NCBI GenBank assembly: GCA_902767785.1
Contig: CACXIR010000006.1
Location: 1-36,059, forward strand
Direction of reading: 5' to 3'
Origin: Fibrobacter succinogenes
GTDB taxonomy: Bacteria; Fibrobacterota; Fibrobacteria; Fibrobacterales; Fibrobacteraceae
Length of the DNA stretch: 36,059 bases
This document shows, in pieces, positions 5,159 to 17,337 of this stretch. The notes beneath the pieces were generated by a model. The model was given only the letters and a program-made list of their open reading frames with translations. It had not been told where the DNA came from and searched no databases. Each line of letters starts with the position of its first letter. Within the stretch, counting starts at the first letter, position 1. The translations under genes and the position numbers were made by a program.

Positions 5159-6478
5159 ATGCTGAAGCGAAAGTTCATAGAGTCCCTAAAACAGTGGAAA
5201 AACACCAAAAAAAGGGAATGTCTGCTCGTAAACGGGGCTCGCCAGGTCGGCAAGACCTTCATTATAGATGTCTTTGGCCGCGAAAACTACCAAAGCTATA
5301 TCTATCTGAATCTGTTCAAGAACCCCGAATACAAGCAGATTTTTGAAGGGGAACTCGAGCCCACCGAGATATACAAGCGCATATCGTTACTCGTCAAGAA
5401 TGTCAAGTTCATCGAGGGCGACACGCTCATCTTTATCGACGAAATCCAGGCCTGCAGCAAGGCGCGGACGGCCCTCAAGTTTCTTGCCATGGACGACAAA
5501 TACGACATTATCGCATCCGGGTCATTGCTTGGGCTGCATTACAACAAACTGAACCAGGAGAATGCGAACGAGATTTCTATCCCTGTTGGTTACGAGCGCG
5601 AAGTCGAAATGCACTCCCTTGACTTCGAGGAATTCCTCTGGGCGACCGGCGTGAGTGAGAGAGCCATCGAAAACCTGAAGGAATATTACGAGCAAAAAAA
5701 GGCCCTGCCCGACAGTGTAAAGGATTTGTACCAGAACAAGCTCCGCGAATACCTGGTGGTGGGCGGCATGCCTGCCGTGGTGAACGCCTTCGTTGAAACA
5801 TCGAACTTCCAGGAAGCGTTCAAGGTGCAGCAGAAAATTTTCAAGGCCTACGAGGACGATATCCAGCATTACGCGACCAACACGGAGAGGCCCAAGATCC
5901 GTGCCTGCTACTACTCGATTCCACGTCAGCTGGCCAAGGAATATTCAAAGTTCCAGTACAAGACTGTCGAGAAAAACGGTAACGCTAAAAAGTACGGCAA
6001 CGCTTTGGATTGGCTGGTCGATGCGGGCTTGATCAAGCGGGTACACAACGTGAGCCTGCCCGAGATGCCGCTCAGGGCTTATGAGCAGCCGGAAAACTTC
6101 AAGGTTTACGTCACCGATGTCGGCCTTGCGACTCATCAGTTCGGTTTCGAGACGCAGTCGGCTCTTTTGCGTAAGGAGTTGAAGGGGCACGCCAAGGGCG
6201 GCATTTACGAGAACCTGATTTTCGACATTCTGCACAAGCGCGGCCTTGCGCTGAATTATTACAAGAACGGCGAGAATACGCAAGAAATAGAATTCGTATT
6301 TGAACGTTCCGGCGAAGTTGTCCCTGTGGAGGTCAAGTCGAGAAACGGACTGACTACATCGATGAACGAATTTATAAAAAGGTACAGTCCGACGCTCGCG
6401 ATAAAGCTTATCGACGGGAATGTGGGCGTGGACGGCAACAAGGTGAGCCTGCCGCAGTTCATGGCGATTTTTTTGTAG
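5159..6478 (+). CDS. AAA-type ATPase with DUF4143 C-terminal domain (439 aa)
   Basis: The protein has Walker A GARQVGKT at residues 26-33, Walker B IFIDE at 91-95, and a sensor-like IIASGSLLG near 116-124. The C-terminal half contains the DUF4143 region, with a late stretch EIEFVFERSGEVVPVEVKS that resembles a degenerate PD-(D/E)XK nuclease core. The start at 5159 has GAGG 8 nt upstream. Such ATPases are abundant, often horizontally moved, and of unknown physiological role. Here the gene follows a toxin-antitoxin pair but has its own promoter with three spaced repeats. The frame is complete and the length is usual for the family. Confidence 0.85.
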   Translation: MLKRKFIESLKQWKNTKKRECLLVNGARQVGKTFIIDVFGRENYQSYIYLNLFKNPEYKQIFEGELEPTEIYKRISLLVKNVKFIEGDTLIFIDEIQACSKARTALKFLAMDDKYDIIASGSLLGLHYNKLNQENANEISIPVGYEREVEMHSLDFEEFLWATGVSERAIENLKEYYEQKKALPDSVKDLYQNKLREYLVVGGMPAVVNAFVETSNFQEAFKVQQKIFKAYEDDIQHYATNTERPKIRACYYSIPRQLAKEYSKFQYKTVEKNGNAKKYGNALDWLVDAGLIKRVHNVSLPEMPLRAYEQPENFKVYVTDVGLATHQFGFETQSALLRKELKGHAKGGIYENLIFDILHKRGLALNYYKNGENTQEIEFVFERSGEVVPVEVKSRNGLTTSMNEFIKRYSPTLAIKLIDGNVGVDGNKVSLPQFMAIFL

Positions 6479-6578: not shown

Positions 6579-6603
6579 CAAAAAAAGCGAGGAACTTCCT
6601 CGC
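6579..6603 (-). terminator. Intrinsic terminator, minus strand
   Basis: GCGAGGA (6587-6593) and TCCTCGC (6597-6603) form a 7-bp stem with a 3-nt loop. On the minus strand it is followed by seven T residues. It terminates the small transcript predicted to start at 6634; no minus-strand protein gene ends here. Confidence 0.75.
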
Positions 6604-6634
6604 CAGAGATGGACCTGGGTCTTTCGACCAGCCC
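6580..6634 (-). ncRNA. Candidate small RNA of about 55 nt
   Basis: On the minus strand a promoter with TAGACA and TATATT separated by 17 nt (6641-6669) places the start at about 6634 on a GGGC. The transcript would form a first hairpin closed by GGUC-GAAA-GACC with a GNRA tetraloop. After a short linker it would end in the GC-rich terminator hairpin and U7. No start codon or plausible reading frame lies inside. It sits in the 388-bp gap between the DUF4143 ATPase and the glycoside hydrolase. It does not resemble a tRNA, 6S or SRP RNA. Confidence 0.55.
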
Positions 6635-6640
6635 AATAGT

Positions 6641-6783: not shown

Positions 6784-6872
6784 CGGAGTCGCCAAATACC
6801 CCCCGAGCTAGGTATTTTTCTTTGTGATTGGGACAAAAATCGGGCCGTTATGGCCCCAAGGGATGAGTGATA

Positions 6873-8849
6873 GTGAAAAGAGCAGTACTCCATTTTGCCG
6901 GTTGCGGCATTTTGCCTTTTTTCTTGCTTTCGGCCAGCTGTTTTGCCGCAGTAAACTTGAACGTCAGCCTGGGTGATAGCATCAAGCCGGTGACCCATGT
7001 GGCCACGGGTTCGCTCTACGGCCTGACCGAGGATCTTCCGAGCAACATCGAAAAGGACGTGGCTCCTCTCAAGCCCAACGTGTTCCTTGCTCCTGCCCGC
7101 AGCGGTAACGGCCGCCAGCAGCGTATTGGTGGCGCGTTCCTGGTGGCCCCCCGTGTCGAAAGCATTGACGCGAAAATCCAGATTCGCCTGGCCGATGTCT
7201 TGCCCGGCTGGCCTTATCAGTTCCAGAATATGGACCACTGGAAATCCGAGGTCGCCTCTGTCATCAACGACAAGCTCAAATCGAGCAACAAGAACTTTGA
7301 CGGCTACGAAATCTGGAACGAACCTAACGACACCTGGAACAGCAAAAATGGCGATTTTAATTCGGTGCTCTGGAAACAGACCTACGACTTGATTCGACAA
7401 CTGGACCCGGACGCCAAAATCATTGGCCCGTCGTACTCCTTCTATCACGCTTCCAAGATGGAAGAATTCGTGAAGTACTGCGCCCAGAACAAGTGCATGC
7501 CCGACGTGGTCAGCTGGCACCAGTGGGGGAGCGGCGGCTTTGTGGGGGCTGTCGAGACCTACCGCGCCCTCGAAAAGAAGTACAACGTCACGCCCCGCCC
7601 GCTGAGCATCAACGAATATTCCTCTACGGAACATGCCGAAGAGGGTTGCCCGGGCCTGTCGATTCCCTTTATCGCCAAGTTCGAGCGCCACGGTGTCGAA
7701 AGCGCCATGATTTCCTGGTGGTTCGTGCCGCTTCCGGGCCGCCTGGGCAGCCTTCTCACCAAGAACAACGAGCGGGGCGGCGGCTGGTGGCTGTACAAGT
7801 GGTACGGTGACATGAGCGGCTACATGGCGAAGGTGACCCCGCCCAACGACAAGAGCGACGGCGTGGACGGCTTTGCAGCCCTCGACAAGAAGAAGGGCTT
7901 TGCAAGCATCGTGCTGGGCGGCAACACCCTGGGCGATGTGAACGTGAACATTTCGGGTATCCCCGCCGCATTCGGCAACAAGGTGAATGTGGCGGTGGAA
8001 TACGTGGTGTGGGAAGACAAGGACAAGGCGGTTCCTTCTACCACGCCGGTATCCAGCAAGGAATACGACGTGAGCGACGGCAAGATTGTGGTGCCGGTGA
8101 ATATCGCCAACACCAAGTACGGTTACCGCGTGTACGTGACCTCCATTGTCCCCCAGGGTCCTTACAACGGCGTGGCTACGGCAATTCCGGGAAGGCTTGA
8201 GACGGAGAACTACGACGTGGGCGGTCCTGGCAAGGCCTACATGGACAAGGACGACGTGAACAAGGAAATGGAGTATCGTGATGATGCCGTCGATATCGTT
8301 AAAGCGGGTGATGGCTACGCCATCGGCTACACCCAAGAAGGGGAATGGCTGGAATACACCGTGAATGTGGCCGAGGCGGGCGAATACGGCGTGTCTGCCA
8401 GCTACGCCACGTCTTCGGAAAACGCCGGGTTCAACCTGTATGTTGACGGCGAATTGCTTCTGGAAAATGTGATTTTCCCGCAGGGCGCCGACTGGAGCAC
8501 TTATGCCACACACGACGCGGGCAAGGTGAGCCTGCCTGCAGGGGAGCATGTGCTCAGGCTTGAAATTGTGGGCAACTACGTGAATATCGACTGGCTGGAA
8601 TTTGTCTCTTCCCAAAATAGCGGGGATGTGGAGGCCATTCGCGAAGTGGCAAAGGGTGCAAGGGTTCTGCAGGGAATGTTTGGAGCGGTAGACGTGTTCA
8701 GCGTGACAGGACGGTATCTTGGCCAGCTGAATGTGGGTGGCCCCGGTTCTTTGCGGAACTTGTCGGCAATCCTTAGGCAGGCAGGCTATGCACAGGGAAT
8801 GTACGTGGTTCGCGGGGAAGGCTTCTCTTACCGGGTGCGCGTACACTGA
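6873..8849 (+). CDS. Secreted glycoside hydrolase with CBM6 and C-terminal sorting-like domain (658 aa)
   Basis: A signal peptide of about 24 residues (hydrophobic core ending SCFA) is followed by a clan-A-type (beta/alpha)8 catalytic domain. The motif WNEPN places the acid/base at E150, and INEYSS places a likely nucleophile at E248. The overall look is closest to GH39-like enzymes, but the family is not certain. Residues about 440-582 form a CBM6 (GRLETENYD, EGEWLEYTVNV, NIDWLEF), which usually binds xylan or beta-glucan. The last 60 residues (VFSVTGRYLG ... GMYVVRGE) resemble type 9 secretion sorting domains or the Fibrobacter C-terminal conserved domain. GTG at 6873 was chosen because AAGGGA lies 9 nt upstream; GTG 6867 is also possible. 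The likely role is extracellular hemicellulose hydrolysis. Confidence 0.85.
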   Translation: MKRAVLHFAGCGILPFFLLSASCFAAVNLNVSLGDSIKPVTHVATGSLYGLTEDLPSNIEKDVAPLKPNVFLAPARSGNGRQQRIGGAFLVAPRVESIDAKIQIRLADVLPGWPYQFQNMDHWKSEVASVINDKLKSSNKNFDGYEIWNEPNDTWNSKNGDFNSVLWKQTYDLIRQLDPDAKIIGPSYSFYHASKMEEFVKYCAQNKCMPDVVSWHQWGSGGFVGAVETYRALEKKYNVTPRPLSINEYSSTEHAEEGCPGLSIPFIAKFERHGVESAMISWWFVPLPGRLGSLLTKNNERGGGWWLYKWYGDMSGYMAKVTPPNDKSDGVDGFAALDKKKGFASIVLGGNTLGDVNVNISGIPAAFGNKVNVAVEYVVWEDKDKAVPSTTPVSSKEYDVSDGKIVVPVNIANTKYGYRVYVTSIVPQGPYNGVATAIPGRLETENYDVGGPGKAYMDKDDVNKEMEYRDDAVDIVKAGDGYAIGYTQEGEWLEYTVNVAEAGEYGVSASYATSSENAGFNLYVDGELLLENVIFPQGADWSTYATHDAGKVSLPAGEHVLRLEIVGNYVNIDWLEFVSSQNSGDVEAIREVAKGARVLQGMFGAVDVFSVTGRYLGQLNVGGPGSLRNLSAILRQAGYAQGMYVVRGEGFSYRVRVH

Positions 8850-13159: not shown

Positions 13160-13202
13160 CCAGAAAATAAAAACCCACACAAGGTGGGTTTTTATTTTCT
13201 GG
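13160..13202. terminator. Bidirectional terminator between the Wzc-like gene and tmRNA
   Basis: A perfect 19-bp inverted repeat (13160-13178 with 13184-13202, loop ACAAG) has A-rich and T-rich flanks inside the stem, so it works on both strands. On the minus strand it begins at the last bases of tmRNA, so the mature 3' end must be cut from this stem. Confidence 0.85.
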
Positions 13203-13556
13203 AGGTGAGGGGAGTCGAACCCCTGTCCAAAATCACGTCCATGTCCATTCCTACAAGCTTTCCCTTCGTATTTAAGGTCTCGTCTTGTCCACGCCCAAGA
13301 AGGTCGGCGCAGAGTTTGACCAGCCTAGTGAATCTCGGAACCTACCCCCAGGCATGGAAGATTCCTATCCCATATTGCGTCCGGACGTACATCCCGATGG
13401 GAGCGGGATGAGGCCCGGCGTTGCCGCTAATTAGGCAGCGAGTGCGTAGTTTTCGTCAGCACTTATTTTTTTTCAGACTTTTTTACGAGTGCCCTCGTCT
13501 GAGACCTCGGCTTGCAACTAACACTTCGGTAACCCTGTCGAAACCAGAGCACCCCC
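13200..13556 (-). ncRNA. ssrA: tmRNA
   Basis: On the minus strand the 5' end GGGGGUG pairs with the 3' CACCUCC to form the acceptor stem. The T-arm GGGGUUCGACUCCCC and the conserved 5' CUGGUUUCGACAGG are present. The reading frame at 13431-13460 encodes the tag ADENYALAA followed by UAA. The length of about 357 nt is normal. CCA is not encoded after the discriminator A. tmRNA rescues stalled ribosomes and tags the incomplete protein for proteolysis, with SmpB as partner. The only good minus-strand promoter seen lies 300 bp further upstream, beyond two structured repeats, so a long precursor is likely. Confidence 0.95.
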
Positions 13557-13580
13557 GTATTTTCATTCCCGAGTTTTGAT

Positions 13581-13713
13581 CTGGTTGCGACAGGCCTGTC
13601 GACTAAATGCGAGCAGGCGAGCATTTAGGCCCTTGAGCACACTCTGTGTGCGAAAGGCCCGAAGGGCGAGCATAACGCGAGTAGCGTTATGTGAGGCAAA
13701 CCAGAGCACCCCC
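13581..13713 (-). ncRNA. Structured repeat A carrying a copy of the tmRNA 5' end
   Basis: Its minus-strand start is the 16 nt GGGGGTGCTCTGGTTT, identical to the first 16 nt of tmRNA. A closing stem CTGGTT/AACCAG encloses four hairpins: CATAACGC/GCGTTATG (13671-13691), GCCC/GGGC (13657-13667), GCACAC/GTGTGC (13637-13651) and TAAATGC/GCATTTA (13604-13627). Next to the closing stem is a CGACAGGCCTGTCG palindrome that echoes tmRNA's CGACAGG. The stems are preserved in repeat B by paired changes. It lies in the predicted tmRNA precursor. Confidence 0.65.
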
Positions 13714-13739
13714 GGTGCTTGCACCGGGGGGCTCTGGTT
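13699..13739. other. Long hairpin joining repeats A and B
   Basis: The end of repeat A and the start of repeat B form a 19-bp inverted repeat with a single bulged base and a two-base loop. It contains AACCAGAGC, CCCCC and GGTGC against their complements. It has no U-tract and overlaps the middle 16-nt tmRNA-like copy. Confidence 0.7.
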
Positions 13740-13860
13740 GAGACCTGTCGATTAAACGCGACCTTAAGGAGCGTTTAAGCCTTTGAGAGCGTAAGCTCGA
13801 AAAGCCCGAAGGGTGAGAATAACGCGAGTAGCGTTATTCGAAGCAAACCAGAGCACCCCC
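13732..13860 (-). ncRNA. Structured repeat B carrying a second copy of the tmRNA 5' end
   Basis: It has the same architecture as repeat A: the 16-nt tmRNA-like start at 13845-13860, an 8-bp closing stem CTCTGGTT/AACCAGAG, and hairpins AATAACGC/GCGTTATT (13818-13838), GCCC/GGGT (13804-13814), GAGC/GCTC (13787-13798) and TTAAACGC/GCGTTTAA (13752-13778). The last differs from repeat A (TAAATGC/GCATTTA) by a T-to-C change matched by A-to-G across the stem. That is direct evidence of selection on RNA or DNA pairing. Confidence 0.65.
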
Positions 13861-13873
13861 GATTCGAGAGATA

Positions 13874-13902
13874 AATATACAAAGTTCAAAGAAAATTGTA
13901 AA
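13874..13902 (-). promoter_or_regulatory. Promoter reading into the repeats and tmRNA
   Basis: On the minus strand TTTACA (13902-13897) and TATATT (13879-13874) are separated by exactly 17 nt. The expected start, about 13867, lies just before repeat B, so the transcript would contain B, A and tmRNA. No comparable promoter was found between repeat A and tmRNA. Confidence 0.7.
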
Positions 13903-13909
13903 GTAACCG

Positions 13910-13945
13910 ATCTGGTTGAGACTCGTCGACTAAATGTGAGCAGAA
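13910..13945 (-). repeat. Truncated third copy of the tmRNA-linked repeat
   Basis: TCTGGTTGAGACTCGTCGAC followed by TAAATGTGAGCAG matches the corresponding edge of repeats A and B, then the similarity ends just before mfd. It lies upstream of the minus-strand promoter, so it would not be in the transcript. It suggests the array was once longer. Confidence 0.55.
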
Positions 13946-13980: not shown

Positions 13981-16900
13981 ATGGACTCCATCCAAGAATA
14001 TTTGCAGAACCCCGTCCCCCAGACCCTGGACCTTTTCTACCAGGCAGGGGGAGAGTCCATCCATGTGAACGGAGCTACCGTCCCCATGGCCTCCATGATG
14101 GTGGCCCGGCGGTTCTTTAACGCCCCAGGCAACATTCTGGTGGTGTCCAAGGATTTCAAGTCCGCAGAGGCCTGGATGGAAAACCTCCAGAGCCTTTTGG
14201 GCGAAGACTTTGTGCGGTTTTTCCCGTCCATCGGGCTAAAGCCCTACGAGCAGAAGGTCCCTTTCGAGGGCGTTTTGGAAGAGCGTCTCCGCTTTTTCAA
14301 GGATGCGGGCAATGTGCAAAAGCCCCTGGTCACGATATGCCCCCTGGATGCCCTGCTCATGCGGCTTCCTAGGCCCGGAACCCTCCAGAAGAACATCCGC
14401 CAGCTGAAGGTGGGCGACGTCTTGGAACCCGCCACACTTCGCCCGTGGTTTTTGGACAACGGCTTTGTAGAACAGCCCGTGGTCAGCGGCGTGGGGGAGT
14501 TCTCTATTCGCGGCTGCATTGTGGACGTGAACTGCTTCTTGTACCCGCACCCGGTCCGCATCGAATTCTACGGCGACGAAATCGAGTCTATTCGCACCTT
14601 CGACATTTTTACCCAGCGCTCCATTGAACGCATGGACCGCATCGAGCTTTTCCCCATGGGGGAATTCACCCTGCCTTTGCAGGAATCTTCCAAGCTGGGT
14701 GCCGACCTTTCGGGCCTTTGGTGGCGCCGTTCCGACTTCCAGGAACTGGATTCCTCGCTGCTGGATTATTTGCCCGGCTGCTCCCTGGTGTTCGAGGAAC
14801 TGTCCTCCCTTGCGGAGGCGGCCTCGAAACTGTATTTGAACTACGAAGCGATCTTTGAAGATATGGGCGGTGGTGCAAACGCTGCAAGCGCGGGCTGCCG
14901 GCCTCCTGAAAAAAACTGGTGGCGGTTCGGAGAGATTTCCAGGAACTTCCCGGGCAGGGCCAGCATGGACTTGACCCGCGTAGAGGCTGAGTCCGGCAGC
15001 TGGTACAACATTACTGCCAAGCCCCAGGACTTTTCCAGCACGGGAACCGACGCCGTAGCCATGCAGATAGAGGATTTTGCGGCTACGGGCGGTCAGGTGT
15101 ACGTGGTAGCTCCCACTCCCGGTGCCCTTGCACGGTTGCGGCACGTTTTTGAAGGCTTGCCCGTAGAAGATTACTTTGTTGGTAATTTAACAGAAGGTTT
15201 TTGGCTAGAGAGCGACAAGATTGCCTTCTTGACGGAGACCCGCATCTTTAACCGCCATGCGGGCAAGAGCCGCAAGCGGCAGATTGCCGGGTCCGTGGCC
15301 TCTGCCCTGATGGTGGAATCCCTGAACCGCGGGGACTACGTGGCCCACGAGGACCACGGCGTGGGTCGGTACCTGGGTCTTGTCCGCGTGGAGGTGAACG
15401 GCGGCATGGTGGACTGCGCCCTGCTGGAATACAGCGGTGGTGACCGCCTCAAGTTCCCCGTGTCGGACCTGCAAAAAATCGACCGCCTGGAACCCCCCGA
15501 AGGGGAGCCGCCCAAGCTGGACAAGTTGGGGGGCAAAAACTGGGACACTCTCAAAAAGCGGGTCCAGAAAAAGGTGGTGCAGATTGCCCGGGACCTGGTG
15601 GAACTTTATGCTCGCCGGGAACTGGTGGAGGGCTTCGGATTCCCGCCCGACGGCAAGCTCCAGCAGGAATTCGAGGACGCCTTCGAGTACGAGCCTACGC
15701 CGGACCAGGTGAAGGCTACTGAAGATATTAAGCGGGACATGGAAAGCCGCCGCCCCATGGACCGCCTGATTTGCGGGGACGTGGGATTTGGAAAGACCGA
15801 AGTGGCTATGCGGGCCGCCTTCAAGTGCGTCTGTGCCAAAAAACAGGTGGCCATTCTGGTACCCACCACTATACTTGCTGCGCAGCATTACGAGAACTTT
15901 AAGGAACGTTTTGCCGCCTTCCCGGTGAATATCGCCCTGGTGAACCGCTATAAAACCGCCAAAGAGAAGCGGGAAATTTTTAACGGCCTTGCCGAAGGCA
16001 AGGTGGACATTGTGGTAGGTACCCACGCCCTTTTAAGCGAGAAGAACCACTTCAAGGACTTGGGCTTGCTCATTGTGGACGAAGAACAGAAGTTTGGCGT
16101 CAAGCAGAAGGAACGCCTCCGGGAGTTCCGCCTTTCGGTGGATACTCTCAGCATGAGTGCTACCCCCATTCCTCGCTCGTTGCACTTGAGCATGACCGGT
16201 GTTCGGGATATTTCCCTGATTAATACGCCTCCCATAAACCGCCTGCCCGTAGAGACCAAGCTCATGAAGCGGGACGACGTGGTTTTGGCGGAGGCGGTAA
16301 AGGACGAATTGGCCCGCGGAGGCCAAGTGTTTGTGGTCCATGACCGCGTGCAGAGCATAAACCGCCTGGCCGAAGAAGTGGAGGCCTGGGTGCCGGAGGC
16401 CCGTGTGGCGGTGGCCCATGGGCAAATGGAAGATCGCGATTTGGAACGGGTCATGAACGCCTTCTTGAGCAAGGAATTCGACGTTCTGGTAAGCACTAGC
16501 ATTATCGAGTCCGGCCTGGACGTGCCCAACGCCAATACCATCATTATCAACAACGCCCATCACTTTGGCATTAGCCAGCTTTACCAGATGCGGGGACGGG
16601 TGGGGCGTAGCGATGTGCTTGCCAAGGCCTACCTGGTGATCCCTGCAAAGTCGGACATATCTCCGGAATCCATGCGCCGCCTAAAAGCGCTGGAACAGTA
16701 CACTGACTTGGGGAGCGGCTACCAGCTGGCCATGCGGGATTTGGAAATCCGTGGCGCCGGGAACCTTCTGGGCCAGGAACAGCACGGTTTTATTGCCGAG
16801 GTGGGTTTCGAGACTTATATCCGCCTGGTCAAGGAGGCGGTAGAGGAACTGCGGGGCGGCACCGGGGACAAGCCCATACAGCCCCGCGTGGAGCTGGGAA

Positions 16901-17337
16901 TCGACGCCTACCTGCCCGAGGACTACATTCAGGACGGCCTCACCAGGATTTCGCTGTACCAGCGGATTTCCCGCACCGCCTCTGTGGCGGAAGTGCAGGC
17001 CATTTCCCAGGAACTGGAGGACCGCTTTGGCCCGGTGCCTGTGCCTGCCCAGATGCTCATGAAGGTCACCGAAATCGGGTTCCTTGCCGGAGGGCTTCGG
17101 ATCCAGGGACTTCAACAGCGCAAGGGAATCTTGGTGGCCACCTTCACGGAGTTTCCGCCTCCCGATACCCGCGTGCTGGCGGAAATTTCTGCCCGCTGCC
17201 CCTGCCCCATGCGGTACCTGGGGGCAACGCCCTTGCAAGCTGTGTTTGAACTGGGGCAGGGAAGTCCCGAGCAGTTAACGGGGAAGATTCTGGAGATTTT
17301 CCGCGGCTTCGCGGACATCCCGAAGACTTTGCAGTAG
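13981..17337 (+). CDS. mfd: Transcription-repair coupling factor Mfd (1118 aa)
   Basis: The protein has the N-terminal UvrB-homology region, then the RNA-polymerase interaction domain near residues 445-510 (GDYVAHEDHGVGRYLG). The RecA-like translocase has Walker A GDVGFGKTEVAM near 600 and DEEQ near 700, followed by the TRG motif region and a C-terminal TRCF domain from about 970. Mfd removes RNA polymerase stalled at DNA damage and recruits UvrA. The frame is open further upstream to 13813, but that segment is the tmRNA-linked repeat. ATG 13981 begins MDSIQEYLQNP and gives the family's usual length. The nearest GGAG lies 28 nt upstream, too far to act. Its last 63 bp overlap the convergent TatD gene. 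Confidence 0.95.
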   Translation: MDSIQEYLQNPVPQTLDLFYQAGGESIHVNGATVPMASMMVARRFFNAPGNILVVSKDFKSAEAWMENLQSLLGEDFVRFFPSIGLKPYEQKVPFEGVLEERLRFFKDAGNVQKPLVTICPLDALLMRLPRPGTLQKNIRQLKVGDVLEPATLRPWFLDNGFVEQPVVSGVGEFSIRGCIVDVNCFLYPHPVRIEFYGDEIESIRTFDIFTQRSIERMDRIELFPMGEFTLPLQESSKLGADLSGLWWRRSDFQELDSSLLDYLPGCSLVFEELSSLAEAASKLYLNYEAIFEDMGGGANAASAGCRPPEKNWWRFGEISRNFPGRASMDLTRVEAESGSWYNITAKPQDFSSTGTDAVAMQIEDFAATGGQVYVVAPTPGALARLRHVFEGLPVEDYFVGNLTEGFWLESDKIAFLTETRIFNRHAGKSRKRQIAGSVASALMVESLNRGDYVAHEDHGVGRYLGLVRVEVNGGMVDCALLEYSGGDRLKFPVSDLQKIDRLEPPEGEPPKLDKLGGKNWDTLKKRVQKKVVQIARDLVELYARRELVEGFGFPPDGKLQQEFEDAFEYEPTPDQVKATEDIKRDMESRRPMDRLICGDVGFGKTEVAMRAAFKCVCAKKQVAILVPTTILAAQHYENFKERFAAFPVNIALVNRYKTAKEKREIFNGLAEGKVDIVVGTHALLSEKNHFKDLGLLIVDEEQKFGVKQKERLREFRLSVDTLSMSATPIPRSLHLSMTGVRDISLINTPPINRLPVETKLMKRDDVVLAEAVKDELARGGQVFVVHDRVQSINRLAEEVEAWVPEARVAVAHGQMEDRDLERVMNAFLSKEFDVLVSTSIIESGLDVPNANTIIINNAHHFGISQLYQMRGRVGRSDVLAKAYLVIPAKSDISPESMRRLKALEQYTDLGSGYQLAMRDLEIRGAGNLLGQEQHGFIAEVGFETYIRLVKEAVEELRGGTGDKPIQPRVELGIDAYLPEDYIQDGLTRISLYQRISRTASVAEVQAISQELEDRFGPVPVPAQMLMKVTEIGFLAGGLRIQGLQQRKGILVATFTEFPPPDTRVLAEISARCPCPMRYLGATPLQAVFELGQGSPEQLTGKILEIFRGFADIPKTLQ

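Follow-up and report, generated by a model that had tools for sequence, protein, structure and literature searches.

Palindromic cassettes at TTCGA in the ends of tmRNA and tRNA genes of Fibrobacter: candidate DNA-level elements

Introduction

Integron attC arrays consist of small cassettes in tandem beside a fixed site, and their sites are conserved in fold and not in sequence. REP/BIME and IS200/IS605-type hairpin elements are short imperfect palindromes with no coding capacity. Rickettsia palindromic elements (RPE) are stretches of palindromic DNA of about 100–150 bp lying inside RNA genes, including those for tmRNA and M1 RNA (PMC2229807), and the DsiB islands of Dehalococcoides mark their target with tandem direct repeats of the ssrA end (PMC3146451).

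The Fibrobacter cassettes analysed here, of which literature searches found no description in that genus, combine features of RPE-like palindromic repeats and of ssrA/tRNA-targeted elements, yet fail defining features of each. Like RPE, they are palindromic DNA of ~100–150 bp in RNA genes. To judge by their descriptions, RPE are scattered and enter protein genes too, whereas the Fibrobacter cassettes sit at one motif in t(m)RNA ends, with duplicated and inverted gene ends; strong copies were found only at ssrA and the weaker ones examined in tRNA arrays. Tandem direct repeats of the ssrA end are shared with ssrA-targeted islands, but DsiB uses the 3′ end, spans kilobases and has serine recombinases, while the cassettes lie at the 5′ end, span about 150 bp and hold no genes. 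The likeness to integron attC arrays is that of small tandem cassettes adjoining a fixed site, with fold conserved over sequence; however, no integron integrase scored above the TIGR02249 curated cut-off in any of 80 Fibrobacter genomes, and no GTTRRRY core was seen by eye. REP/BIME and IS200/IS605-type elements are likewise short non-coding imperfect palindromes, but the cassettes keep to the ends of t(m)RNA genes and show no obvious link to Y1 transposase.

Results

Anatomy of the ssrA locus

The window, the whole 36,059-nt stretch of Fibrobacter succinogenes DNA that was analysed, carries ssrA on the minus strand (13197–13556; ARAGORN 13200–13556; Rfam RF00023, 173.7 bits; tag ADENYALAA). 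Its divergent neighbour is mfd, the gene of the transcription-repair coupling factor, on the plus strand (13981–17337; Pfam TRCF, CarD_TRCF_RID, DEAD and UvrB_inter; ATG in frame at 13981). Three exact copies of AAACCAGAGCACCCCC, described as 16-nt repeats of the tmRNA 5′ end in an earlier note made from the letters of the window, start at 13541, 13698 and 13845, with spacings of 157 and 147; the first is the tmRNA 5′ end itself, and the identity reaches 17 nt when the following G is counted.

Going upstream from tmRNA on the minus strand, a 21-nt linker (13557–13577) is followed by an inner unit (13713–13578), a 12-nt linker (13714–13725) and an outer unit (13860–13726). Each complete unit consists of GGGGGTGCTCTGGTTT, an insert of 94–96 nt, CGACAGG and an inverted copy of the tmRNA 5′ end. 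The target is thus split, and each unit represents half of it, made up of tmRNA nt 1–16, the ~95-nt hairpin insert, nt 17–23 and the inverted 5′-end copy. The head GGGGGTGCTCTGGTTT is found as the mature tmRNA 5′ end (13541–13556) and as the 5′ arms of the inner (13698–13713) and outer (13845–13860) units. The inner insert has 96 nt and four hairpins (13602–13697), the outer 94 nt, also folded into hairpins (13751–13844). The CGACAG motif noticed earlier at the unit ends is part of CGACAGG, the copy of tmRNA nt 17–23 (13595–13601 and 13744–13750). The inverted arm of the inner unit, CCTGTCGCAACCAGATC (13578–13594), complements a GATCTGG form of the tmRNA 5′ end, while the window tmRNA has GCTCTGG; that of the outer unit is TCTCAACCAGAGCCCCCC (13726–13743). 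The linker between the units, GGTGCAAGCACC, is itself palindromic and extends the arm/head palindrome by 5 bp.

Upstream of the outer unit, and outside both units, a consensus scan placed the likely ssrA promoter, TTTACA-17-TATATT (13902–13874, minus strand, 10/12), which recurs with identical sequence in the sister genome (L023). Beyond it, and near mfd as first noted, lies the 3′ remnant of a third unit (13940–13909, minus strand), comprising the 3′ strand of the last hairpin and TCGACGAGTCTCAACCAGATC; it is kept in L005, L008 and L023. The units fold far better than shuffled sequences (z −8.7). These results confirm the observation made in the earlier note.

Since the window units lie between the likely promoter and the gene, they would be transcribed, and in the predicted folding tmRNA nt 1–23 pair with the arm of the inner unit in the leader. 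Both points suit a structured RNA leader acting in cis to control or assist the 5′ processing of tmRNA; it might, for instance, keep the 5′ end sequestered until the action of RNase P. Against such a leader, the promoter of several other genomes sits between the unit and tmRNA.

Elsewhere in the window, a DUF3800-XI RNA (Rfam RF02975, 60.1 bits) lies at 6589–6635 on the minus strand, flanked by an AAA_14/DUF4143 gene (5159–6478) and a CBM6/GH39-like gene (6867–8849).

Distribution in Fibrobacter and its relatives

Units are present in about two thirds of the 80 Fibrobacter genomes, with 0 to 3 of them upstream of each of ~60 ssrA loci. The 61 loci with a full tmRNA were sorted by pattern into 35 with type I units, like those of the window, 9 with type II, 4 with a palindromic remnant only and 13 with no unit. 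The type II unit is shorter, with the form GGGGGTG..CGGTTCGGTCATG-hairpin-CGCGACACTCACC. A covariance model was built from 38 type I units, which match it by construction; those of its strong matches that were checked lay beside ssrA or within ssrA at the edge of a contig. The repeats and stems of the window are therefore not chance, as homologous units stand at ssrA in most Fibrobacter genomes and the 16-mer of the tmRNA 5′ end occurs nowhere else in the 80 genomes.

In other genera of the family, units were found in three genomes only (G098, G104 and G108), and ~35 further Fibrobacterota ssrA loci gave none, a palindrome in G081 being the exception. This absence from most other genera, together with the 13 unit-less loci among the 61, argues against a leader RNA acting in processing. 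A search for dispersed units in 85k GTDB genomes gave matches on Fibrobacter contigs only; the tmRNA body follows downstream in 13 of these 14 matches and the remaining one stops at a contig edge. Dispersed copies of the ssrA type were thus found neither in the 80 genomes nor in the 85k, and we reject a SINE-like dispersal of tmRNA-derived RNA.

Several loci depart from the usual arrangement. G011 and G030 have, in addition to the normal gene, two or one full-length tmRNA copies (L059:2000–3425 and L066), each interrupted between nt 16 and 17 by a type I insert and equipped with its own terminator. In three MAGs (L067, L068 and L070) the unit is fused into tmRNA and the normal 5′ end is absent; these fusions may be genuine deletions, or else errors of assembly where hairpins are strong. 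In G005 (L049, 944–1500) three near-identical units form a 202-bp tandem with a promoter-like stretch after the first two, a recent amplification of unit and promoter upstream of tmRNA. Such amplification is what would be expected of passive local repeats, that is, one ancient insertion in a duplicated gene end after which copies were duplicated in tandem or deleted, palindromes were repaired through template switching and strains now and then exchanged homologous DNA, with no dedicated mobility.

Homologous inserts at tRNA genes

The weaker covariance-model matches examined (28–43 bits) proved to be homologues of the insert, lodged in duplicated tRNA 3′ ends. Thirteen of the 14 checked lie at most 300 nt from an intact tRNA-Pro or tRNA-Gly gene, a position that each would take by chance with a probability of about 1%, and the fourteenth sits within a tRNA-Pro array. 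The earlier note had proposed this search as a test for a mobile element: its outcome is mixed, since there are copies away from ssrA, all of the examined ones being at tRNA genes, and no dispersed copies of the ssrA type. The insertion point, T^TCGA, is common to the tRNA T-loop copies and the ssrA units, the insert standing between TT and CGA. Its orientation is antisense to tRNA and sense to tmRNA, which again speaks against a leader RNA.

In the window's own genome (L102, contig C30, 11524–11809) a complete second tRNA-Pro(TGG), its T-loop split by a 107-nt hairpin insert, directly adjoins the intact gene. Of the 49 distinct tRNA genes found in G043 and the window's own genome, six have copies of their 3′ end close by, separated by hairpin arrays, and two further ones are plain tandem tRNAs. 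The arrays and the ssrA locus share the plan (A H A′ L)n A-gene, in which A is the gene end, H the hairpin insert, A′ an inverted copy and L the tmRNA leader, with the promoter in some genomes, or the terminator for tRNA.

A tRNA-Pro pseudocopy at L121:1122–1260 has a second hairpin insert, in its anticodon loop, and the tRNA-Gly(CCC) array of G043 adjoins the gene of a MACPF/perforin-domain protein (L190:1786–3162). Across L169 (own tRNA-Arg TCT), L012, L059, L035 and L036, a type II hairpin, CGGCTCGGATATG-stem-GCATCGCTCGCC, stands at a tRNA-Arg 3′-end copy and also in intergenic DNA distant from the ends of genes. Type II may therefore be a dispersed element.

The tRNA-Pro arrays of three genomes adjoin what seem, from ORF sizes and order, to be the same genes, as passive local repeats would predict. 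Such repeats explain less well an exact target point common to unrelated genes (the D-loop analogue of tmRNA and the T-loop of tRNA) and two insert types, I and II, with patchy presence in four genera; together these suggest several independent site-specific entries.

Covariation of the insert stems

Covariation in stems is usually read as selection on RNA. The paired changes noticed between the two window units (TAAATGC/GCATTTA versus TAAACGC/GCGTTTA) are real, and across the 38 type I units double changes are found in 18 of 38 pairs. In the insert stems, 18 of 30 pairs have two or more Watson–Crick types. An RNA selected as a transcript should favour G-U intermediates on the transcribed strand; the insert stems have G-U and A-C at 8:11 beside 1115 Watson–Crick pairs, against 944:46 in the tmRNA stems of the same genomes, taken as control. 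In 37 of the 38 units the fold is even slightly better when the insert is read on its other strand. The evidence thus favours a DNA-level element over a new regulatory RNA, the comparison of sequences giving covariation almost without G-U, an arm that tracks the downstream tmRNA end and cassettes that differ within near-identical flanks.

Stems that covary, and an arm that follows the tmRNA end, would also be expected of a leader RNA. The covariation seen here lacks both G-U intermediates and strand bias, and with the patchy distribution and the opposite orientation at tRNAs we consider a structured RNA acting in tmRNA maturation, the second reading of the earlier note, to be unlikely.

Tracking of the arms and turnover of the tmRNA head

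The units had been thought to fold into closed stems. The stem does join a unit's own two arms in some genomes, but it is to the downstream tmRNA end that the arm stays complementary across species. Among 18 short-linker cases that were informative (discordant), 16 have an inverted arm that matches the downstream tmRNA head and not the 5′ arm of its own unit (sign test p = 0.00014, shared ancestry being ignored; the count left out five units with a one-base arm deletion, one of which, L057, would count against). The palindrome extends on average 3.56 bp into the local leader, compared with 0.42 in shuffled linkers. In the window's sister genome (L023) an A/C difference at head position 8 is common to all three heads and one inverted arm. 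Arm tracking and leader palindromes are probably the marks of local re-copying of the palindrome. Template switching creates and mends hairpins with compensatory changes (PMC8794818), a process on which passive local repeats could equally draw.

The cassettes themselves differ between closely similar loci. G076 and G077 have an upstream flank score of 0.92 and tmRNAs 99.7% identical, with inserts of just 78% identity, and G068 and G014 have a common flank, with a different cassette and a difference at tmRNA nt 10. On a tree inferred from the tmRNA without its first 16 nt, nt 8 changed 15 times and nt 10 11 times, while the columns of the body changed 1.26 times on average (95th percentile 7, maximum 14). 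Positions 8 and 10 are thus among the most homoplastic of tmRNA, and nt 16–25 show zero changes. Turnover of the head goes together with units: genomes that lack them show 3 head changes to 130 in the body, those that have them 31 to 357, and none of 60 size-matched subsamples of the latter was as low as the unit-less ratio.

The simplest account of these sequence differences is that exchange of cassettes replaces the first bases of tmRNA up to a boundary close to TTCGA. Cassette differences and head turnover would also be expected if strains exchanged DNA by ordinary homologous recombination, and nt 8 and 10 could be merely weakly constrained in this group, some body columns being as variable (maximum 14). 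The first reading of the earlier note, that an element inserted itself at the 5′ end of ssrA, rebuilding the gene each time, gains support from a target split at one point, from cassettes that differ on near-identical flanks and from the turnover of the 5′ end.

Search for a mobilising partner and for known families

The surroundings of the arrays yielded neither a recombinase nor an autonomous partner, the genes beside the tRNA arrays being housekeeping or unknown. Y1 transposases occur in 27 of the 80 genomes with no obvious link to the units, and many unit-bearing genomes (e.g., G045 and G076) have none. Neither Y1 transposase, for this want of a link, nor integron integrase, with no genome of the 80 above the cut-off, is supported as the partner. 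The want of an enzyme and of dispersed copies fits passive local repeats; with the common target point and the two insert types weighed against it, we regard this explanation as possible but somewhat doubtful.

Direct repeats of the gene end are present at the target, and tandem repeats of this kind beside ssrA and tRNA genes are a known signature of integrative elements; Dehalococcoides islands leave 20-bp repeats of the ssrA 3′ end (PMC3146451). The cassettes could then be scars of ordinary tyrosine or serine integrase islands that target tRNA genes or ssrA, reduced to their attachment sites. However, no integrase, island or cargo was found within several kb of the loci examined, and none lies between the repeats, which are only about 40–310 nt apart. 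The ssrA target here is the 5′ end, and a conserved folded insert splits its core. An origin as island scars is very improbable.

A search of IMG/VR for the core pattern of the insert gave no match, and we reject a phage origin; three 19-mer matches there are unrelated sequence in which no tRNA or tmRNA was found. An Rfam search of the units of the window and of ten other Fibrobacter loci gave nothing above the gathering threshold. The sole sub-threshold match, to RF01699 (Clostridiales-1 RNA; plus strand, 34.2 bits against a gathering score of 48), is to the window units and was unreported in the ten other loci. Matches to tmRNA_permuted overlap ordinary tmRNA and were set aside.

Discussion

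We think it probable, if only by a modest degree, that the gene-end cassettes are DNA-level palindromic elements sitting at TTCGA in tmRNA and tRNA genes. Each cassette has its insert at T^TCGA within a copy of a gene end, so that the gene fragment outward of this point is present twice and the intact gene still has its whole end. The duplicated fragment is the tmRNA 5′ end, with its promoter in some genomes, or the tRNA 3′ end with its terminator. Insertion at TTCGA may have been a mobile event. Cassettes would be gained, lost and exchanged through recombination at the gene end, with replacement of the first ~16 nt of the gene, and the A′/A palindromes would be re-copied locally, most likely through template switching during replication.

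A bolder form of this proposal, which we put forward tentatively and think unlikely as it stands, is that the cassettes represent a new class of mobile DNA, non-coding and specialised in the ends of t(m)RNA genes. A recombinase, either of the host or not yet discovered, would recognise the hairpin cassettes as folded DNA and recombine them at TTCGA. With each entry the gene would receive a fresh end, and an essential RNA gene would so be rebuilt repeatedly from outside. The donated end would be the tmRNA 5′ end, sometimes with a promoter, or for tRNA the 3′ end with a terminator.

The findings bear on how structured repeats are read. Strong stem covariation can arise at the level of DNA, a caution for the calling of functional RNAs, and counting G-U against A-C, with tmRNA from the same genomes as the reference, offers an easy means of telling DNA from RNA covariation. 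With many genomes at hand, Fibrobacter makes the maintenance of hairpins by template switching directly testable in a bacterial genus. If the proposed account is true, the tRNA T-loops and the tmRNA 5′ end would have one recombination target in common, and the first 16 nt of tmRNA, an essential RNA gene, would be repeatedly replaced via cassette exchange.
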